DNA of 64,000 bases from Galactobacter caseinivorans (lineage in GTDB: Bacteria > Actinomycetota > Actinomycetes > Actinomycetales > Micrococcaceae): NCBI RefSeq assembly GCF_003640665.1, contig NZ_QQXL01000006.1, forward strand, positions 1-64,000. The letters run 5' to 3'. This document shows positions 22,877 to 64,000 of this stretch, piece by piece. The number at the start of each line of letters is the position of its first letter. Position 1 is the first letter of the stretch. The notes beneath the pieces were generated by a model. That model had not been told where the DNA came from. It ran no database searches and was given only the letters and a program-made list of their open reading frames with translations. The position numbers were made by a program, and so were the translations under genes.

Positions 22877-22882
22877 ACAAGG

Positions 22883-24944: not shown

Positions 24945-24956
24945 GCGGTCAGCCTA

Positions 24957-25036: not shown

Positions 25037-25056
25037 GCATGAGTCGAGGAGGACCA

Positions 25057-25257
25057 GTGACTGAGATCAGTTTGAAAGCCCCGGAGGCGCGGACGACGAG
25101 TGTGCCGGCCGCTTGCGAAGGGATGGGCATTAGCCGAGCTACCGGGTACCGCCTGGTCCGGAGCGGCGATTTCCCGGTCCGGGTGCTAAAGATCGGCAAG
25201 CAGCTGCGAGTGAGCATCACGGACCTGAACCGCTACTTGGACGGCGGGGCCGGATGA
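25057..25257 (+). CDS. Excisionase/HTH_17-type DNA-binding protein of element 1
   Basis: A 66-residue protein with a winged-helix (MerR-like) fold: TSVPAACEGMGISRATGYRLVRSGDFPVRVLKIGKQLRVSITDLNRYL. The last part is the typical wing and recognition segment of excisionases. GTG 25057 has GAGGAGGA just upstream and follows operator 2, so it is the first gene of the repressed rightward operon. It overlaps the next start by 4 bases (ATGA). It probably directs excision and may also act as regulator. Confidence 0.85.
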   Translation: MTEISLKAPEARTTSVPAACEGMGISRATGYRLVRSGDFPVRVLKIGKQLRVSITDLNRYLDGGAG

Positions 25258-25649: not shown

Positions 25650-25660
25650 GAAGGACCACC

Positions 25661-26203
25661 ATGACTATGCAGACTATCAACACAGCTGTCCCGCTCTCTA
25701 CCCCCGAGGCCGGTGACCTTGGCGTGTTCCTCCACCGGAGCACAGACCTTGACGGCGTTCTCCGCTTCGACCTGGAGACGCAGGAGGGGCCGATGGACGC
25801 CGAGGGCCTCGCAGCGCTGCGTGACCTGATCGCGCTGATCCTGGACAAGCCGCAGCGTCGGCAACTCACTATCGCCCCAGACCCCTCAGAGACCCCCGTG
25901 GTGGTGTCCTGCGTCAACGTGGCCGGGGTGCAGGTCGCCGAGTACCAGAGCGCTAAGGAGGGCGTCACCGTCGCTCTTGAGACCGATGAGGTGGTTCCGG
26001 TGCGCCGCATCCCCGAGCTGATCGCGTTCCTGCAATCAGTCGAGAAGGACCACCGCCTCGCGGCTGCGCGTGACTTCTTCGGGTCGGAGGATGCTCTTGA
26101 CCTCAGCAAGCACACGATGCAGAGCCTCATGGAGTATGCGGAGACCCACGGCTATGACGTGCCCGCGTTCCTCACGGTGGCGTGCGAGGTGTTAGGCAAG
26201 TGA
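25661..26203 (+). CDS. Conserved element protein, unknown function (180 aa)
   Basis: 180 residues, strongly similar to the 181-residue protein at 60653. The first 120 or so residues are nearly identical, including FLHRSTD, ETQEGPMDAEGLAALRDLI, DKPQRRQL and TPVVVSCVNVAGVQV. The C-terminal third is diverged. ATG 25661 follows a GGAAGGA ribosome site. Predicted beta-rich N-terminal domain with a helical tail; no known motif. Confidence 0.75.
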   Translation: MTMQTINTAVPLSTPEAGDLGVFLHRSTDLDGVLRFDLETQEGPMDAEGLAALRDLIALILDKPQRRQLTIAPDPSETPVVVSCVNVAGVQVAEYQSAKEGVTVALETDEVVPVRRIPELIAFLQSVEKDHRLAAARDFFGSEDALDLSKHTMQSLMEYAETHGYDVPAFLTVACEVLGK

Positions 26204-26292
26204 GCGACAACTACAACCAGGTGCCTCCCGAGGTCCGCCACCGATGGGGAACCCCCGCACCGCTCCCCCAGCAAGCCCACAGGGCCCGGTGA
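26200..26292 (+). CDS. Tiny overlapping ORF (30 aa)
   Basis: GTG 26200 overlaps the previous stop (GTGA) and the frame ends at TGA 26290-26292, overlapping the next ATG by one base. The C-terminal LPxQAHRAR is shared with a 14-codon frame at 61195. It may be a translational coupler rather than a working protein. Confidence 0.4.
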   Translation: MSDNYNQVPPEVRHRWGTPAPLPQQAHRAR

Positions 26293-26462
26293 TGGGAGAT
26301 GACCACTCCCCCGAGCGCCACGCACTCGCAGAAGGTGAGGCATGGTGGCGCGGATACCAAGCAGGAGCCGCAACCCGAAGTGTGGGAGCTGCTGGACAGG
26401 GACGACGTGCAAACCTTCCTCGCGTTCGAGCGGCATTGCGCCTACTCAGACGGCAAACGTGA
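26292..26462 (+). CDS. Small conserved protein, frame A (56 aa)
   Basis: Begins MGDD and contains EAWWRGYQAGAATRSVG. Compared with element 2 (61239), differences in the upstream part fall mostly at third codon positions in this frame (gca/gcc, gag/gaa, gca/gcg), so it is translated there. Its last 25 or so codons overlap frame B and look unselected. It may be a separate small protein or the first half of a frameshift product. Confidence 0.55.
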   Translation: MGDDHSPERHALAEGEAWWRGYQAGAATRSVGAAGQGRRANLPRVRAALRLLRRQT

Positions 26463-26598
26463 CGGCGTGAACGAGGAATACCAGCGCTGGCAGCACATCC
26501 CGCTAGCCGCCTACTCCTACGCCCAAGGCTGGCACGCCTGCCGCGAACAATACGAACGCACCGGCAAACTGCCACACCACCTCAGGGCCGTGTCCTGA
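26380..26598 (+). CDS. Small conserved protein, frame B (at least 72 aa)
   Basis: From about GTG 26380, VWELLDRDDVQ to HACREQYERTGKLPHHLRAVS. Compared with 61327-61545, changes in this frame are synonymous (ctg/cta, agg/cgc, gtg/gta, caa/cag), so the frame is translated here. An ATG at 26299 would extend it, but the upstream part evolves as frame A. The true start, or a +1 frameshift from frame A, is undecided. Function unknown. Confidence 0.6.
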   Translation: MWELLDRDDVQTFLAFERHCAYSDGKRDGVNEEYQRWQHIPLAAYSYAQGWHACREQYERTGKLPHHLRAVS

Positions 26599-26623
26599 AC
26601 CAAGCAACACCACCACTTGCTGT

Positions 26624-26651
26624 GCCCCGCCCTACCTCTCAAGGGCGGGGC
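26624..26651 (+). terminator. Hairpin before the replication ATPase gene
   Basis: GCCCCGCCCT (26624-26633) pairs with AGGGCGGGGC (26642-26651). No T-tract. Element 2 has a hairpin in the equivalent place (61565-61600). Confidence 0.55.
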
Positions 26652-26681
26652 GCAGCCCTTTCAACGACGAACGGAGTCGCC

Positions 26682-27998
26682 TTGAGCGAACCCACCAACT
26701 CACTCGTCCTCACCCCCGCATCCACCATCACCCCGCGCCGGCAACGATGGGTTTGGCAGAACCTAATGCCAGCTGGCACCGCCACAACATGCGCAGGCAA
26801 GGGCGGCGAAGGCAAGACAACACTCGTGATCTCCGTCGCGGCGAAACTCACCCGAGGCACCCTCGAAGGTGATTACTACGGCAAGCCGTCAGCGGTCATC
26901 ATTGTTGGTCCCGAAGACGACTGGGGGCCAGTCATGGTTCCCCGGTTCATCGCCGCAGGCGCAGACCTCGACAAGGTATTCCAGGTTGCAATCCGCACCG
27001 TCTCCGAAAACTGGGAAGGCGAACGAGAACTGCGCTTCCCCGTGGACACTCTCATGATGGAACAGGCCATTCAGCAGACCGGCGCGAAGATGATCGTCCT
27101 CGACCCGGCCCCGGCACTCATGCAAGGAGACATGAACAAGGTCCAAGACGTACGCCAAGCAATGGGCCCGCTCATCGCCCTAGCGCAAAAGTACGACCTC
27201 GCCCTCGTACTCATCAATCACTTCGCCAAGGGACAAAGCTCCGTGTCCTCGAAGCTCTCAGGCTCGCACGCCTGGCGTGATGCCGTGCGTTCATTCTTGG
27301 CCTTCGCCAAGGACGAGGACAGCGGGGAGCGAGTCATGACCGTGGACAAGAACAACTACGCCACGGATCTGGGGTCCTACTCCTTCGAGATCGTCTCCGA
27401 GGACGTGGAAACACCCGACGGCACAGTCAGCGTCGGCCGAGCAATCTTCGGTGGCCCCACGGACACGACCGTGGGGCAGATCCTCGCCCGACAAGCAGTA
27501 GGAGGCGACGACGAGGGCGAACAGGAGGACCGCAACGCTGCCCAAGAGTTTGTCCTCGACTTCCTCAAAGGCCGCGACGATGGCGAAGCACCAGCCGGAG
27601 ACGTCATCAAAGCCGGACGCGCAGCAGGGTTCAGTGACAACGATATGAAGAACGCTCGAAAGCGGTGTCGAGAACCGAAGATCGCTAGTCGCAAAGCTGC
27701 CTTTGGAGCCGGGTGGGTATGGGCAGTCGAAGACTCGCTCGAAGGAGTCACCGAACCTCCGAAGGTGTCGAAGGAGTCGAAGGAGTCACCTCCTACGGAC
27801 ATGACCCCTTCGCGACACCTTCGAACTGTCCCCACCCAAGGAGTCACTCAAGGTGTCATCCCCGCAAACCTGACACCTTCGACACCTTCGAGCGATCCCC
27901 TGACACCTTCGACGTGTCCACTGCACAAAGAAGAAGACGTTCACGGGTGCTACACCTGCAACCAAATCGCACAGCGCCCCGACCTCTTCACCGCCTGA
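26682..27998 (+). CDS. RepA-like AAA ATPase (replicative helicase type)
   Basis: A 438-residue protein of the hexameric RepA/AAA_25 type. Walker A AGKGGEGKTTLV is near residue 45-55. VIIVGPEDDW follows, then Walker B MIVLDPAPAL and the sensor-like LVLINHFAKG. A helical domain follows, then a Thr/Pro/Ser-rich tail of about 90 residues encoded by the iteron array, ending in a Cys-containing motif (CPLHKEEDVHGCYTC). The TTG start at 26682 has CGGAG upstream. Probably unwinds the element's origin. The ATPase in the same slot of element 2 is unrelated. Confidence 0.82.
   Translation: MSEPTNSLVLTPASTITPRRQRWVWQNLMPAGTATTCAGKGGEGKTTLVISVAAKLTRGTLEGDYYGKPSAVIIVGPEDDWGPVMVPRFIAAGADLDKVFQVAIRTVSENWEGERELRFPVDTLMMEQAIQQTGAKMIVLDPAPALMQGDMNKVQDVRQAMGPLIALAQKYDLALVLINHFAKGQSSVSSKLSGSHAWRDAVRSFLAFAKDEDSGERVMTVDKNNYATDLGSYSFEIVSEDVETPDGTVSVGRAIFGGPTDTTVGQILARQAVGGDDEGEQEDRNAAQEFVLDFLKGRDDGEAPAGDVIKAGRAAGFSDNDMKNARKRCREPKIASRKAAFGAGWVWAVEDSLEGVTEPPKVSKESKESPPTDMTPSRHLRTVPTQGVTQGVIPANLTPSTPSSDPLTPSTCPLHKEEDVHGCYTCNQIAQRPDLFTA
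27741..27910 (+). repeat. Iteron-like 9-bp repeats, candidate origin of element 1
   Basis: GAAGG(T/A)GTC or its complement GACACCTTC occurs about ten times. Plus-sense GAAGG(T/A)GTC is at 27741, 27761, 27770 and 27779, with the last three in perfect tandem. GACACCTTC is at 27814, 27872, 27881 and 27902. CAAGG variants are at 27837 and 27849. All lie inside the 3' part of the ATPase gene. This is the usual place for initiator-binding iterons in plasmids and phage satellites. Confidence 0.65.
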
Positions 27999-28013
27999 AC
28001 AAACCACGCCCCC

Positions 28014-28044
28014 AGGGCCAGCATCCATCACGGGTGCTGGCCCT
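28014..28044 (+). terminator. Hairpin after the RepA-like gene
   Basis: AGGGCCAGCA (28014-28023) pairs with TGCTGGCCCT (28035-28044), just after the ATPase stop and before the next ribosome site. Confidence 0.55.
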
Positions 28045-28066
28045 GCCTCATCTCCAGGAGCACATC

Positions 28067-28279
28067 ATGAACGACCCACGCCAGGGCTACCACCGCTCAT
28101 CCATCACGCGCGTAGTCGAACAGAAATACCTCAACCCCGACGGCAGCAAAGTCCCCGGCATGACCATCCAACGCAACGGCCGCGGACTCGTCCACCTCAC
28201 CCCCACCGAGGCCCGACGCATCGCCGCAGCCCTCAACCGCACCGCCAACGACATAGCCGCCAAGGAGGCCCAGCAGTGA
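28067..28279 (+). CDS. Small element protein (70 aa)
   Basis: 70 residues: PDGSKVPGMTIQRNGRGLVHL, then a helix LTPTEARRIAAALNRTANDIAAKEAQQ. The protein at 63166 in element 2 has the same plan and the same EAQQ end. ATG has AGGAG upstream, and the stop overlaps the next GTG. Function unknown; it resembles the following small proteins in having a strand-rich half followed by one helix. Confidence 0.65.
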   Translation: MNDPRQGYHRSSITRVVEQKYLNPDGSKVPGMTIQRNGRGLVHLTPTEARRIAAALNRTANDIAAKEAQQ

Positions 28280-28476
28280 GCACCCTTCCCACCGCCGAAG
28301 CCACCTCCTACCTGGACGTGCCAGGCCAACCCCGGCGCGTGCGCATCACCTGCCCACGCTGCCACTACCCACACACCTACGCCGCACCCCGATACCGCAC
28401 CAGCCCCACCACCACGCAGCTCTGCGGACTCAGCGGCGCACTCATCCTCACCACCGGATTGGACCGCACCACATGA
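28276..28476 (+). CDS. Small single-CxxC protein (66 aa)
   Basis: Nearly identical to 63369-63575 through TLPTAEATSYLDVPGQPRRV, CPRC and RTSPTTTQLCGL. One CPRC pair plus a later Cys could bind metal. GTG 28276 overlaps the previous stop (GTGA). The strong conservation between otherwise exchanged modules suggests an important role. Not a known family to me. Confidence 0.7.
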   Translation: MSTLPTAEATSYLDVPGQPRRVRITCPRCHYPHTYAAPRYRTSPTTTQLCGLSGALILTTGLDRTT

Positions 28477-28694
28477 GCTACACAAGCCACGAAAGCCTCT
28501 ACCGCCGCCGCTGGATCGAAGGTGAAACCCTCCGCGTGGACCACGCCAACATGCTCACCGGCGACCCCACCACACCAACAACACCAGGTATCGCGCTCAT
28601 CGCCCGGGACCACCACATACTGCTCTGCATCACCACCGAACACGCCCTGCAACTCCACGAACAACTCACCGACGCTCTGGGAGAAAGCAATTGA
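28473..28694 (+). CDS. Small element protein (73 aa)
   Basis: 73 residues, strand-rich start (RRRWIEGETLRVDHANML), then IALIARDHHILLCITTEHALQLHEQLTDALGE. The tail has the A-x-x-L-x-x-x-L pattern seen in its neighbours. It overlaps both flanking genes by 4 bases. Confidence 0.6.
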   Translation: MSYTSHESLYRRRWIEGETLRVDHANMLTGDPTTPTTPGIALIARDHHILLCITTEHALQLHEQLTDALGESN

Positions 28695-28888
28695 GCGGCC
28701 CCCGCCACATCCCGACCCCGTTAATGGGCCGCGTATTCGCCCGCAACTGGATCCACGACGACGGCCAGCCCCGACCCAGCATCGTCCTCTACCGCACAGA
28801 CAACAAAGTCGCCGTCGTCCTCTCCGCCGAAGAAGCGTTCACCCTCTCCAACACCCTCGTAGACGCCGCCGAAGGCCTCACCAAATAA
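28691..28888 (+). CDS. Small element protein (65 aa), TTG start
   Basis: 65 residues; VFARNWIHDDGQPRPSIVLYRTDNKVAVVLSAEEAFTLSNTLVDAAEGLTK has the same strand-then-helix plan as its neighbours. The TTG start is inferred from the 4-base overlap (TTGA) with the previous stop and GAGAAAG upstream. Confidence 0.5.
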   Translation: MSGPRHIPTPLMGRVFARNWIHDDGQPRPSIVLYRTDNKVAVVLSAEEAFTLSNTLVDAAEGLTK

Positions 28889-29014
28889 GGACCACCATGA
28901 ACCACCGACCCAGACCACCGCCGGTTGACACGGCACCGCGTTTTCCCGCCCAACCAGGGCACCAACCAGAAACCGGCCCACACAGGGCCACCCACAGACG
29001 TCCAAGGAGGACAC

Positions 29015-29827
29015 ATGAGTACCGCACTGCATACCTACTTCGCCCAAGCCGCCAACAGCTTCAAGGCGCCGCTGCCCACACCCAGCAACATGCCCCATCC
29101 CATGCCCGACTACTCCACCAGCGGCCTCACCGCCGCAGCACGCAGCGCCTACCGAGACGGGCGCGACCCCGCCACCGACCCCGAGGTCATCCGCCAAGCC
29201 ATCGGCCACATCCTGGCCAACAACGGCGTATCCGGCGCGCTCTCCATGGACATTCGCGAGCTGGAAAACCAAGCCAAGCGAGAGGCCTACACCAAGGTGC
29301 TCCCCACCTGGCACAAGGAAGCGAGGGAAGCCGCCAAAACCGTCAACGATGCCGCCACGCAACTGCCCGCCGGCTCATCACTCAACGCGATCATGAACGG
29401 CACCGACGCATCCCTCATCGCTCTGGCTGCCCCGGCAGTCCAAGCCGCCTCCCTCCTCGAAGCGTGGGAGCGACTCATCAACGAACCCGCCGGAAACGCT
29501 GGCAACGCCGCCGGGCCAACCAATGCCCGACCGGCCCTATTCACACCGACCCTCAACCAGGTCCTCAACAACGACTCACGCCACGGTGTCCTAGACCTCG
29601 TCCAAGCCGGTTGGACGCTGGACCCCGCCAAGGACTGGCAAGAAGTCCAGGCCCGCTACACCGCACTGAACAACGTCGAAGAGAACATTCACCAGCGCAT
29701 CGAGCAAGACACCAACGCCCGAGCAAACGGCACCAGCACAGCTACCCGCGGCGGTTACCAATGGCACGCAGCAGTTTGCCGCCACGCTGCCGCCCCCGCG
29801 TTCAACACCCTGCCCAGCTACAACTAA
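29015..29827 (+). CDS. Unknown element protein (270 aa)
   Basis: 270 residues, rich in Ala, Asn and Gln and mostly helical. Recognisable stretches are MSTALHTYFAQAANSF, YRDGRDPATDPEVIRQAIGHIL and ARYTALNNVEENIHQRIEQD. No known motif. An excellent AAGGAGG precedes ATG 29015. It is the largest unexplained gene in element 1, in the region where satellites often carry helper-interfering or accessory genes; that role is speculation. Codons are markedly C- and A-rich compared with host genes. Confidence 0.65.
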   Translation: MSTALHTYFAQAANSFKAPLPTPSNMPHPMPDYSTSGLTAAARSAYRDGRDPATDPEVIRQAIGHILANNGVSGALSMDIRELENQAKREAYTKVLPTWHKEAREAAKTVNDAATQLPAGSSLNAIMNGTDASLIALAAPAVQAASLLEAWERLINEPAGNAGNAAGPTNARPALFTPTLNQVLNNDSRHGVLDLVQAGWTLDPAKDWQEVQARYTALNNVEENIHQRIEQDTNARANGTSTATRGGYQWHAAVCRHAAAPAFNTLPSYN

Positions 29828-29845
29828 CCCACACAAACCAGCCCC

Positions 29846-29880
29846 ACGCCGCCCCGCCCCTCAACCAGTCGGGGCGGCGT
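29846..29880 (+). terminator. Hairpin after the 270-aa gene
   Basis: ACGCCGCCCCG (29846-29856) pairs with CGGGGCGGCGT (29870-29880). Confidence 0.55.
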
Positions 29881-29950
29881 TCCGCTGCTCATGCCACTCC
29901 ACCCTCTGCACCCACAGACCCGAACTACTCAGAGAAGGATCAGCATTCCT

Positions 29951-30184
29951 ATGAACACTCGTAAGCAACAAGCAAACGCATTCTTCGCCACCCTCAACCA
30001 AGCAACCCAAGCCGAAGAAACCTTCAACACCATCCGCGAACAGCGAGCCAACCAACCACCCGAACCCACCACCCACACCTACACCGAACAAGACCAAGCA
30101 CAACACCACGAGGACATGCTCCAAGCCTCACTAAGCGTCTTCGACAACCTCGGGAAACGCGGGCCAAACGACCTCTGGCACTAA
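29951..30184 (+). CDS. Small element protein (77 aa)
   Basis: 77 residues, Gln/Asn/Thr-rich: ANAFFATLNQATQAEETFNTIREQRANQ, a Thr/Pro linker, and DMLQASLSVFDNLGKRGPNDLWH. Helical, no known motif. GAAGGA lies about 11 bases before ATG 29951. The partial gene at 63868 in element 2 also opens with a short Asn/Gln-rich helix and may be its positional counterpart. Confidence 0.5.
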   Translation: MNTRKQQANAFFATLNQATQAEETFNTIREQRANQPPEPTTHTYTEQDQAQHHEDMLQASLSVFDNLGKRGPNDLWH

Positions 30185-30262
30185 CAGCGAGCACCCCACC
30201 GCGACGGTGAAACACGCTGACCTGACAGCGCCCCCGGACAGGCAGAACCCGGAGCCGACCAG

Positions 30263-30304
30263 GCGACTAGGGCCCCACCCCACCCCTCCGGGGGCCCTAG
30301 TTGC
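30263..30304 (+). terminator. Hairpin closing the 29015-30184 gene block
   Basis: A 14-bp stem with one G-T pair (30263-30276 with 30291-30304). The rest of 30185-30483 shows no gene. Confidence 0.6.
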
Positions 30305-30483
30305 CCGCTACGCGTTTAGCCACCTCTCTCTCGGGGCTTTTCTCCGGCGTCGGACATTCCGCGGGGTCCCCGTGCTGGTCCCTGCATGACTACGAGCTAG
30401 ATGGGCGGCCACTACACGCGATCACGGTTCATCCGAACGATCGGCATCCGCTTCACCACCCATCGACTGTGCAAAAATGGGCC

Positions 30484-30648
30484 ATGCCTAAATACGAAGT
30501 GAATGAGATGTCAGGTACTTGCTCCAAGTGCAATAAGACCGGGGTCTTCACAGCTGTGACCGTGCATGAGAACCCCCCTCCAGCGGGCACCACCCGCGTT
30601 GGCGCGTGCCCCAACTGCGGGGACACCCAACTCTTCGCCGAGGCATAA
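30484..30648 (+). CDS. Small zinc-ribbon protein (54 aa)
   Basis: MPKYEVNEMSGTCSKCNKTGVFTAV, then GACPNCGDTQLFAEA: two CxxC knuckles about 26 residues apart, the pattern of a zinc ribbon. ATG 30484 has no strong ribosome site, so the start is tentative. Such proteins often bind nucleic acid or polymerase; role here unknown. Confidence 0.5.
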   Translation: MPKYEVNEMSGTCSKCNKTGVFTAVTVHENPPPAGTTRVGACPNCGDTQLFAEA

Positions 30649-30685
30649 TCCGCGCCGAGACTCTGCAGTCAAGTGGCCTCAGCGT

Positions 30686-30775
30686 GGACATGCTTCGTAG
30701 AGATCCCACGTCAGATTGGCTAGCCTCGACAGCCAAATCGAGCGCATCCGAAACGACGTCAAGATCGTCCTCGAA
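30686..30775 (-). pseudogene. Scar of a second integrase 3' end
   Basis: These 90 bases match 58339-58428 (the 3' end of the element 2 integrase and its flank) at 80 of 90 positions by hand alignment. On the minus strand they encode FEDDLDVVSDALDLAVEASQSD, against FEDDLDVVADALDLAVEASQSE in the intact gene, but no stop follows and the 5' part is missing. Element 1 therefore carries a remnant of an element-2-like left end. Confidence 0.75.
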
Positions 30776-31169
30776 TCTGAGTCGATGCGGCTGGCCCGTG
30801 ACGAGCGCCAAGACATGGTGCGGATGCTCGCCGATGAGGGCGTCAGCACCCGGGCCATCGCTCCGATTGTTGGCGTCCTCGGCTCAGGTGAAGCGCGACA
30901 TTCGAGACTCCTCAACTGGCTCATTTGAGCCAGTTGAACCCTGCGCTGTCATCGGCAATGACGGCCGCACCCGCCCCAGGCAGCGCGCGCCGGGCCGCGT
31001 CTACCGCAAGCGCGTCGAAGACCCCGTGCTCGGCACCGTGCTGCTCTCGTGGAAAGGCAACGAGCCGGGCCGAGCCCGCTGGTCCAACAAGACCACAGGT
31101 GTCGACGGCATGTGCTCGCCCCACCGCGACCCCAAACGTTTCCACGCGACGTTGGGGCACCTGCTGTGA
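30716..31169 (+). pseudogene. Frameshifted HTH regulator, copy 1
   Basis: An HTH segment, RQDMVRMLADEGVSTRAIAPIVGV, is followed by loss of frame. The expected continuation (SAQVKRDIRDSS, then a GNDGRTRP-type tail) is in the next frame, consistent with one extra C at about 30877-30880. The 5' part overlaps the integrase scar, so the gene may also be a fusion. The tail continues to 31169 with unrelated sequence. Confidence 0.6.
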
Positions 31170-31186
31170 CGCCTCCCAGCGTCCAG

Positions 31187-31205
31187 CGTCTCAGTATCTG
31201 AGACG
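31187..31205. promoter_or_regulatory. 19-bp perfect palindrome, operator candidate
   Basis: CGTCTCAGTATCTGAGACG: 8-bp arms around a 3-base centre, 71 bases before the gene at 31276. The same arms with the same spacing occur at 49696-49714 in the chromosome. Confidence 0.55.
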
Positions 31206-31275
31206 ATCGAAACGCCCTGGCTACTCTCATTTGCGAGGCGGCGCAATCGGCGCCGCCCCCACGAAAGGCATCATC

Positions 31276-31557
31276 ATGGCTGCGAGAAACCCAAACCACT
31301 ACCACCGCCACACCGCGCCTGAGCGCCCCGACGAACCAGTTCAAGATGGTGCACTTTTTCGGGTTATCGCCAGAGAGGCAGGCGGCACGCACGCGAAGGT
31401 AGATGTCCACTTGAAGAATCCGAGCTGCAAGGTGGACGCTGGAACCCCTGGTTGCAACTGCCCGGTAGTGAAAACCGTCGATGTGGCTACATGGAACGCA
31501 AACTGCGGCAAGCCGATGCCGAACGGCAAGAGCTCGCACGCGATCATGTACATCTAG
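31276..31557 (+). CDS. Small element protein (93 aa)
   Basis: 93 residues with a His/Asn-rich start, a central strand-rich FRVIAREAGGTHAKVDVHLKN, and four Cys (in KNPSCKVDAGTPGCNCPVV and NANCGKP) that could bind metal or form disulfides. GAAAGG lies 7 bases before ATG 31276. It is a single-gene unit with a palindrome upstream and a strong terminator downstream, the typical layout of a cargo gene expressed from the integrated state. No known family. Confidence 0.65.
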   Translation: MAARNPNHYHRHTAPERPDEPVQDGALFRVIAREAGGTHAKVDVHLKNPSCKVDAGTPGCNCPVVKTVDVATWNANCGKPMPNGKSSHAIMYI

Positions 31558-31571
31558 GAGGACTTGGAGCT

Positions 31572-31603
31572 GGGCGGGGTAACTTCGGTTGCCCCGCCCT
31601 TTT
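31572..31603 (+). terminator. Strong intrinsic terminator with UUCG tetraloop
   Basis: A 12-bp stem (31572-31583 with 31588-31599) closed as C(TTCG)G and followed by TTTT. Confidence 0.9.
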
Positions 31604-31698
31604 CGTCGTTCCACCCCTACCCCGTGGGCCTGCCACCACCGGGGACAAGGGACGCGCCCGGGGAGGCGATTTTGTTCTGTATGGGTTAGGGGATCTCT

Positions 31699-32043
31699 GA
31701 CGAGCGCCAGGACATGGTGCGGATGCTCGCCGATGAGGGCATGAGCACGCGGGCGATTGCACCGGTCGTTGGGGCTGGATTCAACACCGTGGCCCGCGAC
31801 ATCCGAGAAACGGCAACTGTATCAACTGGTACAGACGGGCCCAGCGAGCCCCGCACTGTTCTGGGCAATGAGGGTCGCACCTACACGCCCGCCTCCATCG
31901 AAGACGCCGAAGCCCATGCGATCACTGTCCATTCACTGTCCATCGGCGTGACAACCATTGGCTATCGGGTGCCACAGTTGCACACCGAGTTCCGTGTCAT
32001 TCCGGGGATTCTGATACTGAGCGACACCAGACGATCCGCGTGA
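31699..32043 (+). pseudogene. Truncated HTH regulator, copy 2
   Basis: DERQDMVRMLADEGMSTRAIAPVVGAGFNTVARDIRE is an HTH domain like copy 1, followed by NEGRTYTPAS. An in-frame stop at 31687-31689 and the lack of the N-terminal helix show 5' truncation. An internal ATG at 31714 could still start a shortened protein. The last part runs through the right arm site. Confidence 0.55.
31923..31941 (+). repeat. Paired 8-bp direct repeat, candidate integrase arm site (right end)
   Basis: CACTGTCC at 31923-31930 and 31934-31941 (period 11), within 22 bases identical to 22938-22959. It lies 119 bases before the right 62-bp core. Confidence 0.55.
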
Positions 32044-32060
32044 TTACGGGCCCGGTCAAA

Positions 32061-32122
32061 CTTGAAAACCAGTGTTGGGTAACCCCCAACCAAGGGTTCA
32101 AATCCCTTACCTTCCGCGTAGA
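32061..32122 (+). repeat. attR core of element 1 (62-bp direct repeat)
   Basis: Identical to 22815-22876. It is the displaced 3' half of the original tRNA-Ser(TGA), without its 5' half. Confidence 0.93.
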
Positions 32123-57900: not shown

Positions 57901-58073
57901 AAGCGGGCTTATCGCCGTCAAGCAGGGTTCAAGCCCGCTTCTCGCCGATAGCCCCGCTTCCCCTCGCCCGCGCAACGCCGACCACCCCCGGCCGGACCGA
58001 ACGCCGACCGACCAAGCAGGCTTATCGCCGTCAAGCAGGGTTCAAGCCCGCTTCTCGCCGATAGCCCCGCTTC
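57901..58073. repeat. Two copies of the folded intergenic repeat
   Basis: Units at 57901-57960 and 58014-58073 are almost identical to each other. Each begins AAGCRGGCTTATCGCCGTC and ends CGATAGCCCCGCTTCCCC. They are related to the three units at 32201-32588. Both groups lie next to a tRNA-Ser gene used for integration. No gene is seen in 57715-58165. Confidence 0.75.
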
Positions 58074-58165
58074 CCCTCGCCCGCACCACGCCGACCGCCC
58101 CCGGCCGGACCGAACGCCGTCCGGTTTGGGGCGGTGCGAGGGTGTGCCGTAGAGTGTTGGAGCCT

Positions 58166-58253
58166 GGTGACGTGTCCGAGCGGCCGAAGGTGCAACACTC
58201 GAAATGTTGTGTACGGTAATCCCGTACCGTGGGTTCAAATCCCACCGTCACCG
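58166..58253 (+). tRNA. tRNA-Ser (anticodon CGA); integration target of element 2
   Basis: 88-base class II tRNA: acceptor GGTGACG/CGTCACC, anticodon loop CTCGAAA giving CGA, long variable arm, T arm GGGTTCAAATCCC. No CCA encoded. An integrase follows on the opposite strand. Confidence 0.95.
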
Positions 58254-58260
58254 CGTTAAA

Positions 58261-58305
58261 GAAGGCCCCAAAATCCCTGAAAACTCAAGGATTTTGGGGC
58301 CTTTC
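58261..58305 (+). terminator. Terminator after tRNA-Ser(CGA)
   Basis: GAAGGCCCCAAAATCC (58261-58276) pairs with GGATTTTGGGGCCTTTC (58289-58305). Confidence 0.85.
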
Positions 58306-58324
58306 TTATGTCCAATGGGAGCCA

Positions 58325-58345
58325 TTTGGACACATTTTGGACACA
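58325..58345 (+). repeat. Paired 10-bp direct repeat, candidate integrase arm site
   Basis: TTTGGACACA at 58325-58334 and 58336-58345 (period 11), between the tRNA terminator and the integrase stop. Element 1 has a differently worded pair with the same period in the same place. Confidence 0.5.
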
Positions 58346-58356
58346 CTTCGCAGAGA

Positions 58357-59466
58357 TCACGCCTCAGATTGACTAGCCTCGACAGCCAAATCGAGGGCAT
58401 CCGCAACGACGTCTAGATCGTCCTCGAACAGGTCCGCGTACACGTCAAGAGTCATGGCCGCGGTCTTGTGGCCGAGCATCCGCTGAACCACCTTGACGTT
58501 GGCCCCAGCACTCACGGCGAAAGATGCGGCGGTGTGCCTCAGATCGTGGGGCGTGATTCGCGGAGCCCCTGCCTTCTTGATTGCCGAGGCGAACCACGAC
58601 AGATTGTGTTCGTGCACGCGGGCGTTCCTCATGTAGCCACCGTCCGGGCCCGGAAACAGCAGTTCGTTCTCCGACTTACCGAGCGCGGCAGCCTCGAGGT
58701 CCGAGGCCATAAACCGAGGGAAGGGGACAGCGCGAGCCCTGTGCGTCTTTGGCGTCCCGAGAATCATGGTTCCTGCCACGTCCACGGCATTGTTCACGAC
58801 CCTGAGACGCCGCTTCTCGAGGTCCAGGTCTTGGACACGGAGCGCCGCCATTTCCCCCCACCGCAGGCCGCAGTATGCGAGCACCCGAATCACGGTCGGA
58901 TACTTGGCTGCATTGGCGATCCGCCGCACCTGGTCGTGCGAGAGGTAAACCTTCTCCTTGGGTTTCCGCCGCGGCAGCGATACGTCGCTGGCCGGATTGG
59001 CCGCTAGCAACTTATCCGAGACGGCGTCACCCAAGATTCCGTGAAGGATTCCATACGCTCGCGTGACCACGGTGGCCGAGCGGGCAGGGTAGCCCGGCTC
59101 GTTGCCCACTGAGAGATTGGTGACCCAAGCTTGCACCTCGGTCTTGAGGATGGACGAGATGCCCCGTCTCCCCCACTTAGGGAGCACGTAGTTTCTCCAC
59201 GTGGACTCAAGCACTCGGTAGGCCGATGGCTTCAAGTGCTGTTTACGCTCCAACCACGATGGCCCCAGCTTGGCCACGGTCGTCTTGCCCGCACTGATGG
59301 GTACGAACGCCCCGCGCTGCATGGACGTGGAAACTGACGCCGCGTAGTCCTCGGCGGCGCGTTTCGTCTTGAACCCGCGCTTGCGGGTCTGCGTGTGGTC
59401 TGGAGTGCGGAAACGGATTTCCCAGCGCGTCCCGTCCGCCGTGTCGTAACGCTTGGGAGAAGGCAT
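58357..59466 (-). CDS. Tyrosine recombinase (integrase) of element 2
   Basis: 369 residues. AP2-like arm-binding N-terminus (RWEIRFRTPDHTQTRKRGFKTKRAAEDYAA), SAM-like core-binding domain (60-160), catalytic domain with Arg202 (GLRWGEM), Lys240, His307 and Arg310 (TPHDLRHTA), His333 and Tyr343 (LDVYADLF). It is only distantly like the element 1 integrase, in keeping with a different tRNA target. A scar of a related gene lies in element 1 at 30686-30775. Confidence 0.95.
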   Translation of the reverse strand: MPSPKRYDTADGTRWEIRFRTPDHTQTRKRGFKTKRAAEDYAASVSTSMQRGAFVPISAGKTTVAKLGPSWLERKQHLKPSAYRVLESTWRNYVLPKWGRRGISSILKTEVQAWVTNLSVGNEPGYPARSATVVTRAYGILHGILGDAVSDKLLAANPASDVSLPRRKPKEKVYLSHDQVRRIANAAKYPTVIRVLAYCGLRWGEMAALRVQDLDLEKRRLRVVNNAVDVAGTMILGTPKTHRARAVPFPRFMASDLEAAALGKSENELLFPGPDGGYMRNARVHEHNLSWFASAIKKAGAPRITPHDLRHTAASFAVSAGANVKVVQRMLGHKTAAMTLDVYADLFEDDLDVVADALDLAVEASQSEA

Positions 59467-59468
59467 TG

Positions 59469-59963
59469 CTAGTCACCTTCGAGCGATTTGGGCACAAAAG
59501 AAGGGTTGTGCTTCATCCTGTCCCTTGCCCGAGTGCTTGGCCCCTGCCCGCGCGGTGCCGAGCGATTCGTGTACTCGTCGTGGATCCGCTCGCGCTCCTC
59601 GAAAGTCGCAGCTTCCGGCATAGGGAGCGCCATACCCATTTGCGCCCAAGACCAAAGGTCCGCGTTTGGGTGTTCGCCTGGCAACCCCGTCACCCGGCTC
59701 TTGAGGGAGTCTGACTCGTTTTCCGGCAGGAGTAGCGCTAGAGGCGAAACCTTGAACACGGCAGCGAGGGCAGTGAGGTCATCAACGTCCACTCGGCGCT
59801 CGCCAGCCTCGATGCGACGCAACCCTAGGGGCGGAATTGGGCGCCCAACGTCACTCAACTCCTCCGCGAGTTTTTTGAACTCCTTCGCCCCTCGTAAGCG
59901 AGCTACGTTCTCGCGCACGCGCTCACCGGTCGCCCCAAGCATCATCTTCTTCTTATCGGCCAT
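59469..59963 (-). CDS. XRE-like repressor of element 2
   Basis: 164 residues. N-terminal helix-turn-helix region with RVRENVARLRGAKEFKKLAEELSDVGRPIPPLGLRRIEAGERRVDVDDLTALAAVF, then a disordered, Arg-rich tail. Unrelated in detail to the element 1 repressor, so the two elements should not cross-repress. ATG 59963 is 6 bases after TAGGCT, the same leaderless design as element 1. It precedes the integrase by 2 bases. Confidence 0.85.
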   Translation of the reverse strand: MADKKKMMLGATGERVRENVARLRGAKEFKKLAEELSDVGRPIPPLGLRRIEAGERRVDVDDLTALAAVFKVSPLALLLPENESDSLKSRVTGLPGEHPNADLWSWAQMGMALPMPEAATFEERERIHDEYTNRSAPRGQGPSTRARDRMKHNPSFVPKSLEGD

Positions 59964-60004
59964 GAGCAGAGCCTAGCGCCCATAATGTTCCCTCACGACC
60001 AGTC

Positions 60005-60033
60005 TTGCACGCTGAACGTTCGATATGTATGCT
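60005..60033 (+). promoter_or_regulatory. Promoter of the rightward operon of element 2, with internal palindrome
   Basis: TTGCAC (60005-60010), 17-base spacer, TATGCT (60028-60033). GAACGTTC (60014-60021), an 8-bp palindrome, lies in the spacer and is a natural repressor site. Confidence 0.65.
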
Positions 60034-60079
60034 GATGCCCAGGAGATCAAAACGATCCCCAGGGAATCAAGGGAGCAGC

Positions 60080-60265
60080 ATGAACGAGAAGCTCTACACA
60101 CCACAAGAGTTGGCCGACTGGCGCGGGACCACCGTGGCAGCGCTGGCCCAGGAGCGTTACAAGGGAACTGGCCCAAGGTTCATCAAGCTTGGCAAGACGG
60201 TCCGGTACTCCGAGACCCACGTGAAGGAGTGGCTTGATGCCAACACCCACCAGCGCACTGCCTGA
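60080..60265 (+). CDS. Excisionase/HTH_17-type protein of element 2
   Basis: 61 residues: LYTPQELADWRGTTVAALAQERYKGTGPRFIKLGKTVRYSETHVKEWLDA, a winged-helix excisionase-like fold. AAGGGAGC precedes ATG 60080. It holds the same slot as 25057 but is diverged in sequence. The next gene starts inside its 3' end. Confidence 0.85.
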   Translation: MNEKLYTPQELADWRGTTVAALAQERYKGTGPRFIKLGKTVRYSETHVKEWLDANTHQRTA

Positions 60266-60632
60266 CCGGCGCGAGCACACCCATTCCGACGGTCTGGTTA
60301 TCGCGGGAAGAACGAACCGAGTTGCGATGCGCCACCGTCTCACCGAGTCGACGCGACTGATCAAGCATCACGGGCTCCAGCGCAAGGAAGCCGTGGACGT
60401 GCTGGGTCAAGTGCTCACCCACCAATCGCTCCGGTGGATCAATCGCCACTTCCAGCAGCTCATGGAAGACGATCCCGCGGTTGCCCGTGAGATTCAGTAT
60501 GCAGACCCGACGGGTGAGCAAGCCGTTCACCGTCTGCTCTGCGTCGCTGAAGAGTGCGACCGTTGCGGTCGCTCCACAGAGAAAAACGGCTCCGAGACCC
60601 ATTCCACCAAGAACCGTCTCGAAGCCGCCTGA
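60237..60632 (+). CDS. Conserved element protein, unknown function (131 aa)
   Basis: 131 residues, the counterpart of 25254-25649, with the same length and shared C-terminal KNGSETHSTKNRLEAA. It has CDRC instead of CTCSRC. ATG 60237 has AAGGAG about 8 bases upstream and overlaps the excisionase by 29 bases. A TTG three bases earlier is an alternative. Confidence 0.7.
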   Translation: MPTPTSALPDRREHTHSDGLVIAGRTNRVAMRHRLTESTRLIKHHGLQRKEAVDVLGQVLTHQSLRWINRHFQQLMEDDPAVAREIQYADPTGEQAVHRLLCVAEECDRCGRSTEKNGSETHSTKNRLEAA

Positions 60633-60652
60633 AGATCCTAGAAAGGACCACC

Positions 60653-61198
60653 ATGACTATGCAGATTACCAACAACACTTGCCCACTCTCTACCCCCGAG
60701 GCCGCAGACCTGGGCCTGTTCCTCCACCGGAGCACCGACCGTGACGGCATTCTCCGCTACGAGTTGGAGACACAAGAGGGGCCCATGGACGCCGAGGGCC
60801 TCGCAGCACTGCGTGACCTGATCGCGTCGATCCTGGACAAGCCGCAGCGTCGGCAACTCACCTTCGCCCCTGACCCCAGCGACACCCCCGTGGTGGTGTC
60901 CTGCGTGAACGTGGCCGGTGTGCAGGTCTCCAAGTACCAGAGCACCGAGGATGGCGTCACTGTGGCCCTGGAGACCGATGAGGTGGTGCCGGTGGCGCAG
61001 CTCGTACACCTGGTGGACCACTTGCAGGGCATCCTGCGTGAGCACGCACCACGGGCGCAGGCGGAGCACTACTTCTCCAAGCCCGACGCGATGGACGCTA
61101 AAGCGCAGACCGTGAACTCCGTGATCGCCTTCGCCGTGTCCAACGGGTACGACGTCGCCAAGTTCACCGGCCTTGCCAGTGAGAGGGCAGGCAAGTGA
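60653..61198 (+). CDS. Conserved element protein, unknown function (181 aa)
   Basis: 181 residues, the counterpart of 25661-26203. The first two thirds are nearly identical, including the ribosome site and MTMQ start. The C-terminal third differs (LVHLVDHLQGILREHAPRAQAEHYF), so that part may carry element-specific binding. Confidence 0.75.
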   Translation: MTMQITNNTCPLSTPEAADLGLFLHRSTDRDGILRYELETQEGPMDAEGLAALRDLIASILDKPQRRQLTFAPDPSDTPVVVSCVNVAGVQVSKYQSTEDGVTVALETDEVVPVAQLVHLVDHLQGILREHAPRAQAEHYFSKPDAMDAKAQTVNSVIAFAVSNGYDVAKFTGLASERAGK

Positions 61199-61239
61199 GC
61201 GTGGCCGCCCTCCCCTGGCAAGCGCACAGGGCGCGGTGA
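61195..61239 (+). CDS. Tiny overlapping ORF (14 aa)
   Basis: GTG 61195 overlaps the previous stop, and the frame ends with TGA overlapping the next ATG. LPWQAHRAR matches LPQQAHRAR at 26200-26292. Likely a translational bridge. Confidence 0.35.
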   Translation: MSVAALPWQAHRAR

Positions 61240-61409
61240 TGGGAGATGGCCTCGAACCCGAACGCCAGGCCCTCGCCGTTGCCGAGGCGTGGTGGCGCGG
61301 ATACCAAGCAGGAGCCGCAACCCGAAGTGTGGGAGCTACTGGACCGCGAGGACGTACAGCTGCAAATCGCGTTCGAGCGGCATTGCGCCTACTCAGACGG
61401 CAAACGTGA
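61239..61409 (+). CDS. Small conserved protein, frame A (56 aa)
   Basis: MGDGLEPERQALAVAEAWWRGYQAGAATRSVG and a short overlap tail; the counterpart of 26292-26462. Third-position differences support this frame in its first half. Confidence 0.55.
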   Translation: MGDGLEPERQALAVAEAWWRGYQAGAATRSVGATGPRGRTAANRVRAALRLLRRQT

Positions 61410-61545
61410 CGGCGTGAACGAGGAGTACCAGCGCTGGCAGAACATCCCGCTAGCCGCCTACTCCTACGCCCAAGGCTGGCACGCCTGCCGCGAGCAATAC
61501 GAGCGCACAGGCAAACTGCCACACCACCTCAGGGCCGTGTCCTGA
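61327..61545 (+). CDS. Small conserved protein, frame B (at least 72 aa)
   Basis: VWELLDREDVQLQIAFERHC to HLRAVS; the counterpart of 26380-26598, identical over the last 60 or so residues except N for H. Its start, or a frameshift link to frame A, is unresolved. Confidence 0.6.
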   Translation: MWELLDREDVQLQIAFERHCAYSDGKRDGVNEEYQRWQNIPLAAYSYAQGWHACREQYERTGKLPHHLRAVS

Positions 61546-61564
61546 ACCCACACACACTCAACCA

Positions 61565-61600
61565 GAGGCCGTGCTCTCCACACCAGGAGAGCGCGGCCTC
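61565..61600 (+). terminator. Hairpin before the replication ATPase gene of element 2
   Basis: GAGGCCG plus GCTCTCC (61565-61579) pairs with GGAGAGC plus CGGCCTC (61586-61600), with one mismatched pair. Confidence 0.6.
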
Positions 61601-61619
61601 ACCCATTCACAAGGAGACC

Positions 61620-62984
61620 ATGAACACCACCGATACCGTGCAGGTGCCCGCAGCAGATTCACCGCTCCCCGAGAGCGGCGCGGCCCTCATGGACGAGATT
61701 GCCAACTACTGGCGGCCCTATGTGCACGCGGCCACACCTAACGCTGTGGAACTGATGTGTCTTTGGGCTGGGCATACCTGGCTCCTGAACATCCCCGATC
61801 CAGAAGGTCCCGAACGTGAGGCTCTGCGCCTCTGGCGGACCGAGTATCGCAAGCGTGCCGCGGCACGGGTCAAAGAGTCCGAGATCATCGCTCAGATTGG
61901 CCCTGAGCCGCTTATACCCGATGATCCGCGCATGGACAAAGTGAAGGCCCCCCTGGGGCTGTTCACCTCCCCGATCCTGGCCATCAACGCGGAGGGCCCC
62001 GGGCTGGGGAAGTCTAAAGCCATGCAGGCCCTGCGCGGGCTCGGGTTCTCCTCCATGCCTATCCAGTACGCCACGACCGTTGCAGCCATGCGAGAGTTCC
62101 TGGCCGCCGGAGGCACGTTCCTGGTGGACGAGGCGCACCGTGTGTTCCGTTACGACCATCCTCAACGCTCAGAAGTAGAGGCCCTGATCAATGCTTCCTT
62201 TGACCTCGAAGGCGGCGGCATCTCCAAGATGGTTCAGAAGAAGAGCGGAGAACACGAACTACAGACCTCGCAAGTCTTCGCACCGTGGGCCGTCGCGGGA
62301 ATCAATATGCACATGCCCGCAGATGTTGAGTCCCGCATGATCTGGGTCAACATGACAAGAGGCGATGTGGCGCGGTGGGATGACCGCACAACACCTACAC
62401 CATTCCATTCCTATGGGATCCGGCTACGGGAGCTGTTGCGGCCGCAACTTGCGCTGGCGTTCGAGCACGACGCGGCCATGCCACCCGAACTCACAGGAAG
62501 GCTTGGCGACAAGTGGAGACCGCTCATCATCACCGCCGATCTGATCGGCGGGCGGTGGCCTCAAGTCGCTCGTGAACTCGCCGTGGACGCCATCAACGAC
62601 GAACGAGACGAGCAAGACGAGGTTCCTGAACAGGCGTTGCTCTACCGGGATTGCTTGGCGGTGTTCGAACCAGAGGAAGACAGACTCACCGGCGCAGTAC
62701 TGATCGAACGCCTACGTCCGCTCCAAGACGGAGGGCTGTGGGGGGATCGTTCAGGGCGGCCACTGAACACCACGCACGACCTCGCCAGACGTCTCAACTC
62801 CCGTAGCTTCCACCCGGCCCGGCCCAAGTCCAATGGCTCTAACCGGGCGTATCCAGCGGCTGCCTTTCATGCTGGATTGGAGCACTACAGAGAAGTGCTC
62901 CTGACTTCCCTGTCAGAAGTGTCAGAAGTGTCAGAATCCGCGCCAACACTGGGATTGGGGCCTGACACTTTGCCCCGGCCCTGA
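61620..62984 (+). CDS. DUF3631-type ATPase (replication-associated)
   Basis: 454 residues. Walker A EGPGLGKSKAMQAL (about residue 125), Walker B TFLVDEAHRVF, VAGINMHMPADVESRMIWV, and the DUF3631 signature DKWRPLIITADLIGGRWPQVAREL. Proteins of this type are found in plasmids and phages with helicase or primase roles. It replaces the RepA-like ATPase of element 1 without sequence similarity. ATG 61620 has AAGGAGA. The stop codon is the first three bases of an iteron. Confidence 0.8.
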   Translation: MNTTDTVQVPAADSPLPESGAALMDEIANYWRPYVHAATPNAVELMCLWAGHTWLLNIPDPEGPEREALRLWRTEYRKRAAARVKESEIIAQIGPEPLIPDDPRMDKVKAPLGLFTSPILAINAEGPGLGKSKAMQALRGLGFSSMPIQYATTVAAMREFLAAGGTFLVDEAHRVFRYDHPQRSEVEALINASFDLEGGGISKMVQKKSGEHELQTSQVFAPWAVAGINMHMPADVESRMIWVNMTRGDVARWDDRTTPTPFHSYGIRLRELLRPQLALAFEHDAAMPPELTGRLGDKWRPLIITADLIGGRWPQVARELAVDAINDERDEQDEVPEQALLYRDCLAVFEPEEDRLTGAVLIERLRPLQDGGLWGDRSGRPLNTTHDLARRLNSRSFHPARPKSNGSNRAYPAAAFHAGLEHYREVLLTSLSEVSEVSESAPTLGLGPDTLPRP

Positions 62985-63073
62985 CACTTACCAAGTGTCA
63001 GGGCACCAGCAAGTGTCAGCCAATATTCCCCGTGATCCCGGGGAAATTGACACTACTGACACTTCTGACACTT
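62917..63073 (+). repeat. Iteron array, candidate origin of element 2
   Basis: TGACACTT or its complement AAGTGTCA occurs at 62917, 62926, 62963, 62982, 62993, 63011, 63057 and 63066, with TGACACTA at 63048. Tandem members are spaced exactly 9 bases. Between the two halves lies AATATT and the inverted repeat TTCCCCG-N6-CGGGGAA (about 63026-63046). The array starts in the end of the ATPase gene and fills the gap behind it. Confidence 0.75.
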
Positions 63074-63104
63074 ACCTGATGCCCCTGCTCCTTCGACTAC
63101 CTCA

Positions 63105-63138
63105 GACGGCCCTCGTCCCCACGCGGACGAGGGCCGTC
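63105..63138 (+). terminator. Hairpin after the iteron array
   Basis: GACGGCCCTCGTCC (63105-63118) pairs with GGACGAGGGCCGTC (63125-63138). Confidence 0.65.
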
Positions 63139-63165
63139 CCCTTCCCCTGAAAGGACTCAAAACAC

Positions 63166-63372
63166 ATGGCCAACACAGTTTTCCGCACACCATCCTCCGT
63201 CACCGCCTACCCCAGCGACTGGAGGCAACCAGACGGAACCCGAGTCCCCGGCCTCACCCTCGTCCGCCGTGGCAAATCACTAGCGCACCTGGACGCCGCA
63301 GAAGCCACGGAGCTAGCCGCCTCACTCACCAGGCTCCTAGACCACCTACACGAGCAGGAGGCCCAGCAGTGA
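63166..63372 (+). CDS. Small element protein (68 aa)
   Basis: 68 residues: PDGTRVPGLTLVRRGKSLAHLDAAEATELAASLTRLLDHLHEQEAQQ, the counterpart of 28067-28279. GAAAGGA lies 11 bases before ATG, and the stop overlaps the next start. Confidence 0.65.
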   Translation: MANTVFRTPSSVTAYPSDWRQPDGTRVPGLTLVRRGKSLAHLDAAEATELAASLTRLLDHLHEQEAQQ

Positions 63373-63575
63373 ACACCCTTCCCACCGCCGAAGCCACTTC
63401 CTACCTGGACGTGCCAGGCCAACCCCGACGGGTGCGCATCACCTGCCCACGCTGCAACTACCCCCACACCTACGCCGCCCCCAGATACCGCACCAGCCCC
63501 ACCACCACACAGCTCTGCGGACTCACCGGCGCACTCATCCTCATCACCGGCCTCCAGCCACTACGACAGGACTAA
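63369..63575 (+). CDS. Small single-CxxC protein (68 aa)
   Basis: Almost identical to 28276-28476; differs at the C-terminus (TGLQPLRQD). CPRC and a later Cys are kept. The start overlaps the previous stop; here it is GTG. Confidence 0.7.
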   Translation: MNTLPTAEATSYLDVPGQPRRVRITCPRCNYPHTYAAPRYRTSPTTTQLCGLTGALILITGLQPLRQD

Positions 63576-63578
63576 CCC

Positions 63579-63851
63579 ATGTACCTTCGCCCAACCGACC
63601 CAGACGCCACGAGCTTCGAGATCTCCCACGGCGGCGTAATTCTCGCTCAGATCACACGATCCCAAGCCATGGCCCTCCAAGAACAACTAGAGGTGACTCT
63701 CGCCGCAACCCGCATGCCGCCACCCGCACCAAACCAAACCCCCGGGGACCTCAAACCCCGAGCCAACTGGGGACCAACACCCTCCAAACCCAAAAACACG
63801 ACGCCCATAGCGGGCATCATCGGCCACCTCAACGGCAACCGCACCAACTAA
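63579..63851 (+). CDS. Small element protein (90 aa)
   Basis: 90 residues. The first 45 follow the strand-then-helix plan (FEISHGGVILAQITRSQAMALQEQLEVTLAA). A Pro-rich tail follows (PPPAPNQTPGDLKPRANWGPTPSKPK) and ends HLNGNRTN. No known family. Confidence 0.6.
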   Translation: MYLRPTDPDATSFEISHGGVILAQITRSQAMALQEQLEVTLAATRMPPPAPNQTPGDLKPRANWGPTPSKPKNTTPIAGIIGHLNGNRTN

Positions 63852-63867
63852 CAGCAAGGACAGCACC

Positions 63868-64000
63868 ATGAACCAGAACACGTTAGAAATCCAGGCCGCC
63901 ATCCAAGGCGTTCGCAGCGCCGCCCGACAGCTCGACCTTCCATTCAACGAGTACCCCGCCCAACCCGACACCATGCCCACCCCGGCCAAAGCTGACATCA
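63868..64000 (+). CDS. Start of an element gene, cut by the window edge
   Basis: 44 codons visible: MNQNTLEIQAAIQGVRSAARQL, then FNEYPAQPDTMPTPAKADI, with no stop. AAGGA lies 9 bases before the ATG. Function cannot be judged. Confidence 0.55.
   Translation, partial: MNQNTLEIQAAIQGVRSAARQLDLPFNEYPAQPDTMPTPAKADI

Follow-up and report, generated by a model that had tools for sequence, protein, structure and literature searches.

Across the 3′ end of a gene for a DUF3631 ATPase, in the window analysed here (a 64,000-bp stretch of the Galactobacter caseinivorans genome), lies a dense array of short repeats, which raises the question of whether the array is a replication origin and the ATPase its initiator. 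We favour this reading with a probability of about 80%: the array would be the cognate origin of a 10.6-kb element, and the DUF3631 (RepAM-type) AAA+ ATPase would recognise it and be exchanged together with it as a cassette.

The element, termed element 2, resides in a tRNA-Ser(cga) gene and is bounded by a 24-bp direct repeat (Table 1). A second direct repeat of 22 bp is found by both attachment sites (window 58327-58348 and contig 68772-68793) and possibly represents integrase arm sites. Between the excisionase-like gene and the DUF3631 gene, the plus strand carries two genes without assigned function. Downstream of the array, several small plus-strand genes are followed by one for a 276-aa protein of unassigned function, and a 169-aa protein, likewise encoded on the plus strand 3′ of the array, matches the 'DNA polymerase/primase' family phrog_8643 (E = 1.3e-56). 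Two overlapping frames beyond this primase-like gene, outside the window (contig 66474-67666; 9475-10667 of locus L004), look like an IS3-type transposase. Among ten element 2 proteins, a set that leaves aside the IS3-like frames, several small frames and the antisense frames, Pfam (E 0.1) returned no FtsK/SpoIIIE-type transfer protein; neither a terminase nor a capsid match was obtained for the ten, several of which had no match at all. PADLOC recognised no defence gene in eight proteins, and the only RNA family match in 58000-64000 is the tRNA.

Table 1. Features of element 2 and the corresponding cassette of element 1 (window coordinates unless marked as contig)
Feature	Position	Strand	Remarks
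Left attachment repeat	58234-58257	+	24 bp, over tRNA-Ser(cga) 3′ end
Tyrosine integrase	58357-59466	-	
HTH regulator	59469-59963	-	phrog_11503
Excisionase-like HTH protein	60077-60265	+	phrog_66
99-aa gene	61246-61545	+	Function unassigned; last before cassette; conserved in element 1
Exchanged cassette, element 2	61549-63355	+	Hairpin, DUF3631 gene, array, hairpin, most of 68-aa gene
Hairpin ahead of ATPase gene	61565-61600		15-nt arms, 93% complementary
DUF3631 (PF12307) ATPase gene, RepAM-type initiator	61620-62984	+	Pfam, alignment, predicted model
Iteron array, proposed origin	62917-63073		Nine 9-bp copies, over DUF3631 gene 3′ end
Block 1	62917-62934	+	Two tandem copies (62917-62925, 62926-62934)
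Block 2	62962-62989	-	Copies 62962-62970 and 62981-62989, 19 bp apart
Block 3	62993-63019	+	Copies 62993-63001 and 63011-63019, 18 bp apart
Block 4	63047-63073	-	Three tandem copies, 9-bp spacing (63047, 63056, 63065)
AATATT	63022-63027		
7-bp inverted repeat	63026-63032/63039-63045		TTCCCCG/CGGGGAA around TGATCC
Hairpin beyond array	63105-63138		Perfect 14-nt arms
68-aa gene past array	63166-63372	+	DUF6907 match below its cut-off
Right attachment repeat copy	contig 68876-68899		Beyond window
Cassette of element 1, same slot	26602-28262	+	AAA_25 ATPase gene, AAGGTGT(CG) array, hairpins 26619-26656 and 28013-28045
Array of element 1	27742-27909		Word AAGGTGT(CG); ++++ -- ++ ---

A preliminary description of the locus had counted nine TGACACT copies, several at exact 9-base spacing. 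Indeed, the exact word occurs nine times on the two strands of the window, and all nine copies fall within 62918-63072, with exact 9-bp steps at 62918/62927 and 63048/63057/63066; the shuffle mean of 4.92 for the whole window corresponds to about 0.012 expected per 157 bp. With 8 copies, TGACACT forms the strongest 7-mer cluster in any 160-bp window; GCCCTCA ranks second, with seven copies in the 160 bp from 5981 to 6140. Extended by one base on each side, the unit measures 9 bp and reads AAGTGTCAG in eight copies and TAGTGTCAA in the remaining one (63047-63055), and a degenerate tenth copy, CCCTGTCAG, is present at 62908-62916. Across all 19 contigs of the genome (2.95 Mb), TGACACT-N1-2-TGACACT, the tandem form, is confined to the array (three matches; reversed-pattern control 0) and is thus absent beside unrelated genes, where its discovery, according to the preliminary description, would have spoken against the proposal. 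Allowing one mismatch, TGACACTT matches 13 times over 20 kb against a shuffle mean of 9.1, so that the clustering is striking and the total number is not.

Taking the strand of its first copies as plus, the array is oriented ++ -- ++ --- with start-to-start gaps of 9, 36, 19, 12, 18, 36, 9 and 9. A perfect 12-bp inverted repeat whose loop is 3 nt long (62978-63004) is made up of the inner copies of block 2 and block 3, and the mirror structure as a whole comprises two 60-nt arms that are 77% complementary; folded as single-stranded DNA, the array yields z = -10.6 relative to 200 shuffles. AATATT and the 7-bp inverted repeat, around which the copies had been described as grouped, are both present, but they are sited between copies 6 and 7, off the array centre. 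A clear AT-rich stretch is missing, the 60-bp window lowest in GC still having 48%. Of the nine copies, three fall within the DUF3631 frame, the fourth spans the stop and five follow it, and the first copies encode the C-terminal tail SEVSEVSES of the ATPase. A repeat at the protein level, that is, this low-complexity tail as the cause of the array, was considered and rejected, because five of the nine copies lie past the stop and both strands are used.

The ATPase scores 82.1 bits against PF12307, for which the curated cut-off is 24, and hence belongs to DUF3631. PMC3218068 equates this domain with RepAM, a replication initiator family of actinomycete integrative and conjugative elements (AICEs) that is linked to the autonomous replication of the AICE pMEA300, and mentions that the RepAM gene occasionally adjoins a prim-pol gene. 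The protein is divergent: aligned locally with 79 others, it mostly shares 22-33% identity. Residues invariant in an alignment of 20 DUF3631 proteins include G130-K131 of the Walker A motif (GPGLGKS), D170-E171 of the Walker B motif (DE), N191 and R239, the motif names being our own assignment. Since a PDB sequence search with the 20 aligned proteins gave a best E of only 0.96, we turned to a fold search. The predicted model, built with 50 of 65 full-length viral-contig proteins, has a mean pLDDT of 84.3, which drops below 50 over most of the iteron-coded tail (438-453). Its best structural match is to MCM helicases (Z 16.5, 238 residues, 3.7 Å, 10% identity), and the 50 matches listed by VIA-align are MCM-type entries only; Foldseek matches include RuvB, ORC, PriRep1, AAV Rep and papillomavirus E1. 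The predicted protein thus looks like an MCM-like, helicase-type AAA+ fold, and judging by the secondary structure of the model, residues 337-438 look winged-helix-like.

A scan with the single protein found neither close relatives in the genome-contig and viral-contig sets nor any phage match; distant DUF3631 relatives were instead recovered by an alignment-based search. In 295 genomes of the same bacterial family there are ten other matches, 28-30% identical. A DUF3631 protein from Nonomuraea matched a single phage record, PV029746.1 31455-32369 (Pseudomonas phage Phipami28), at 37% identity.

Whether ATPase and array belong together can be judged from element 1, a second small integrative element (window 22815-32122) in tRNA-Ser(tga), with an integrase at 22951-24243 and, over the tRNA gene, a 62-bp attachment repeat whose copies lie at 22815 and 32061. 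Several gene blocks are common to the two elements at 88-94% identity. They are 88-90% identical in two stretches up to 61548 in element 2 and 26601 in element 1, give no blastn match over the next 1.8 and 1.7 kb, respectively, and are again 94% identical from 63356/28263 to 63550/28457. The dissimilar segments hold the DUF3631 ATPase with its array in element 2 and an unrelated AAA_25 ATPase with another array in element 1. Because the elements are alike on both flanks and unlike inside the ATPase-array block, the sequences suggest that initiator and array behave as one cassette and are exchanged together, in support of the earlier proposal that they travel as a unit. The 99-aa neighbour has no relative in the genome-contig or viral-contig sets, and element 1, in the same genome, is the sole place where its DNA recurs at high identity (four other genomes contain matches of 31-55 bp, E 4e-4 to 8e-4); the exchange is therefore documented by one pair of elements.

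As had been noted, the iteron word changes along with the ATPase, from AAGGTGT(CG) with AAA_25 to TGACACT with DUF3631, while GTGTC is contained in both words. The arrays had been called different; this applies to words and ATPases, but their mirror layouts are similar, albeit with different gaps (the element 1 orientation in Table 1 counts copies with at most one mismatch and leaves out a one-mismatch copy at 27952). Both cassettes start with a 15-nt-arm hairpin and have a 14-nt-arm hairpin past the array, the hairpin sequences being different. Among other AAA_25-type relatives, 8 of 13 have at least five word copies at the 3′ end, compared with at most four elsewhere at the same loci; two of the eight array-bearing genes are stop-interrupted, and the count omits L194, an identical-looking second copy within one genome. 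Ending in CPLH...GCYTC, the element 1 ATPase resembles several DUF3631 proteins in its tail, a hint of cassette recombination at the array as well. This zinc-finger-like C-terminal tail (CPLH...CYTC type) directly follows the iterons at window 27914-27998 and at loci L021, L022, L023 and L025, and is hence common to two unrelated ATPase families; other DUF3631 tails end in CxxC...HxxC.

We then compared the 3′ ends of DUF3631 genes in 80 loci, comprising that of element 2, the ten family relatives, three plasmid records and 66 loci from the order and class, and separately in 74 viral-contig loci, 72 of which were usable (one frameshift and one gene running off the end were dropped). From the 80-locus set L039 (same as L028), L050 (gene of L043) and L047 (below the family cut-off) had been removed, whereas L071, whose frame runs off the contig, was retained; of the matches without a locus, 18 were fetched. 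At 54 of the 80 loci the stop has the strongest repeated-word cluster nearby, at 16 there is a tie and at 10 the strongest is elsewhere (viral loci: 34, 24 and 16 of 74). Clusters of at least six 7-mer copies within 300 bp of the stop occur at 38/80 genome and plasmid loci, as against 0/29 in equal-sized downstream and 4/80 in upstream controls, and at 23/72 viral loci (controls 0/68 and 2/70); the remaining 42/80 and 49/72 loci have fewer than six copies there. Two of the array-bearing genes, with 13 and 11 copies, are located on circular Streptomyces plasmids of 13.5 and 14.3 kb. Since arrays recur at DUF3631 3′ ends, DUF3631 corresponds to RepAM and array-bearing plasmids exist, the array qualifies as a candidate origin, and its position and build, likened to those of an origin in the preliminary description, gain support from these comparisons.

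The word itself is not retained. A search for the same iteron beside other DUF3631 genes, proposed at the outset, found AGTGTCA/TGACACT as top word at 0/79 other loci, and the top words vary (CCGCTAC, AGCCGTA, CCGTCCC, CGTGACA and others). For 52 loci with at least five copies, similarity of iteron words correlates with that of the proteins (r = 0.55, reached in 0/2000 permutations), in a set whose loci share descent and include four pairs above 90% protein identity; word pairs agree at six or more of seven bases in 1-5% of cases below 50% protein identity and in 67% above 80%. This fits co-evolution of initiator and word, and shared descent alone would also produce it. A CTGACC(A/T)GC box is found near the stop in 35/80 loci (controls 2/80 and 1/37) and in 11/72 viral loci (controls 3/70 and 4/68). 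In element 2 the place that this box occupies in many other arrays is taken by the TGATCC segment, which is no exact match, and we do not claim the box there. Some loci have clusters near the start of the DUF3631 gene: L022 (G157:C16) carries a 12-copy CCGACGG array there and three exact copies at the 3′ end, and the N terminus of its DUF3631 protein reads VGSTGSVGSVGS repeats; L021 and L119 have clusters near the gene start as well.

The mirrored arrangement of element 2 is rarely reached by chance, with 17 of 1,000,000 permutations of its own gaps and signs fitting the plan. A strict core of this plan, in either sign and with tolerances set once the element 2 layout was known, is present in 17 of 65 arrays with at least four copies (permutation mean 0.58, maximum 3 in 300); a looser core test also yields 17, out of 80, in part at other loci. 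In the viral set, 2/45 arrays have the strict core (permutation mean 0.19, maximum 2), an unconvincing result. With 17/65 on one side and 2/45 on the other, the mirror layout belongs to part of the DUF3631 family plus element 2. Loci L056 (-70+ -61+ / -30- -12- / 1+ 18+ / 50- 59-) and L067 (-54+ -45+ / -10- 8- / 17+ 34+ / 70- 79-), with positions counted from the gene end, combine the same layout with other words. More tentatively, and with the odds somewhat against it, actinobacterial mobile elements with two unrelated ATPases, DUF3631 (MCM-like AAA+) and AAA_25 (RecA/KaiC-like), may share a mirror plan in which a run of tandem 9-bp iterons, two inverted pairs and a second run of tandem 9-bp iterons are written into the initiator gene at its 3′ end. 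Initiator and array, with the hairpins on either side, would then travel as a plug-in cassette that alters the replication specificity of an element at a single stroke, and the layout would be kept by the need of two helicase rings to load face to face.

On the origin reading, we propose that the element would excise to form a circle, whereupon the ATPase may bind the 9-bp iterons via its C-terminal winged-helix region. The mirror layout together with the MCM-like fold suggests that two initiator assemblies would form face to face on the array, and perhaps the MCM-like initiator loads as two facing rings. These assemblies would melt the array or adjoining DNA and either act as helicases or load them, and the primase-like protein of the element and host enzymes could then complete copying, presumably in both directions. 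Exchange of the cassette between elements would change replication specificity in one step.

The main rival to an iteron origin is a rolling-circle origin, with the long hairpin as double-strand origin nicked by the DUF3631 protein. PMC3218068 predicts RepAM proteins to be rolling-circle initiators and describes putative nick sites resembling those of the pC194 family, and the array is able to fold as one long single-strand hairpin. Motifs and predicted fold, however, indicate an AAA+ ATPase, and the H-x-H string HMH of the element 2 protein is absent at that place from the other 19 aligned proteins and is hence not a conserved HUH signature. Furthermore, we know of no rolling-circle origin featuring mirrored iteron blocks at 9-bp spacing, and we regard this mode of replication as unlikely. 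Less probable still is an operator or copy-control array, at which a repressor or the ATPase binds the repeats to govern transcription or copy number while the origin lies elsewhere. Regulator clusters, too, typically have repeated 9-bp sites on the two strands, and iterons often serve control as well; yet the array sits where the initiator gene ends, recurs with the initiator in many hosts and was exchanged along with the ATPase and not with the genes directly upstream. A clt-like transfer locus or a recombination hot spot merely adjoining the initiator is highly improbable: double-stranded DNA transfer in actinomycetes does employ an FtsK-type protein that binds to short direct repeats, but no FtsK/SpoIIIE-type protein was found among the ten element 2 proteins scanned.

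Element 2 shares with RepAM-bearing AICEs of the pMEA300 type the initiator family, a tyrosine integrase and a tRNA-gene attachment site, and AICE-like genes for integrase, prim-pol and FtsK/TraB-type proteins are present on the two circular DUF3631 plasmids; element 2 differs in having no detected FtsK/Tra transfer gene. As in theta-type iteron plasmids, several short repeats adjoin the gene of the initiator, but those of element 2 are mirrored, 9 bp long and reach into that gene. The initiators of iteron plasmids are of the winged-helix Rep_3 type, whereas that of element 2 is predicted to be AAA+. Its predicted fold resembles MCM/SF3-type AAA+ helicases (Z of about 16 for MCM; E1 among the Foldseek matches), and origins of the papillomavirus E1 type also have mirrored binding sites; identity to MCM is nevertheless only about 10%, the protein is that of a bacterial mobile element, and double rings are at most conjectural here. 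With phage-inducible chromosomal islands (PICIs, including SaPIs; PMC6092414), element 2 has in common an iteron origin directly 3′ of the initiator gene and the order of Gram-positive PICIs, with int and repressor on one strand and xis and rep-ori on the other. PICI origins, however, have an AT-rich region between two iteron sets instead of four mirrored blocks, the primase-like gene precedes rep in PICIs and lies downstream of the array in element 2, and none of the ten scanned proteins of the latter gave a terminase or capsid hit. As transfer, terminase and capsid genes went undetected and a two-set AT-rich origin is missing, we file element 2 under neither AICEs nor PICIs, even though it works like both.

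Iteron-bearing origins 3′ of initiators in PICIs and RepAM in AICEs are known already. In the literature searched, which includes PMC3218068, PMC6092414 and PMC9513070 and does not extend to the original pMEA300 papers, we found no report of iteron arrays at DUF3631/RepAM 3′ ends. Pfam names DUF3631 a 'protein of unknown function', yet in a class of actinomycete elements the domain is the hallmark of the initiator, and for many of its genes there is now a candidate origin whose binding word can be read. An MCM-like fold, as predicted by modelling, is offered in place of the published rolling-circle prediction. The two elements of one genome display a natural exchange of initiator plus array, and since the layout is kept while the word changes, it becomes testable which of the two sets the specificity of the initiator. 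Small orthogonal replicons for actinobacteria could result.
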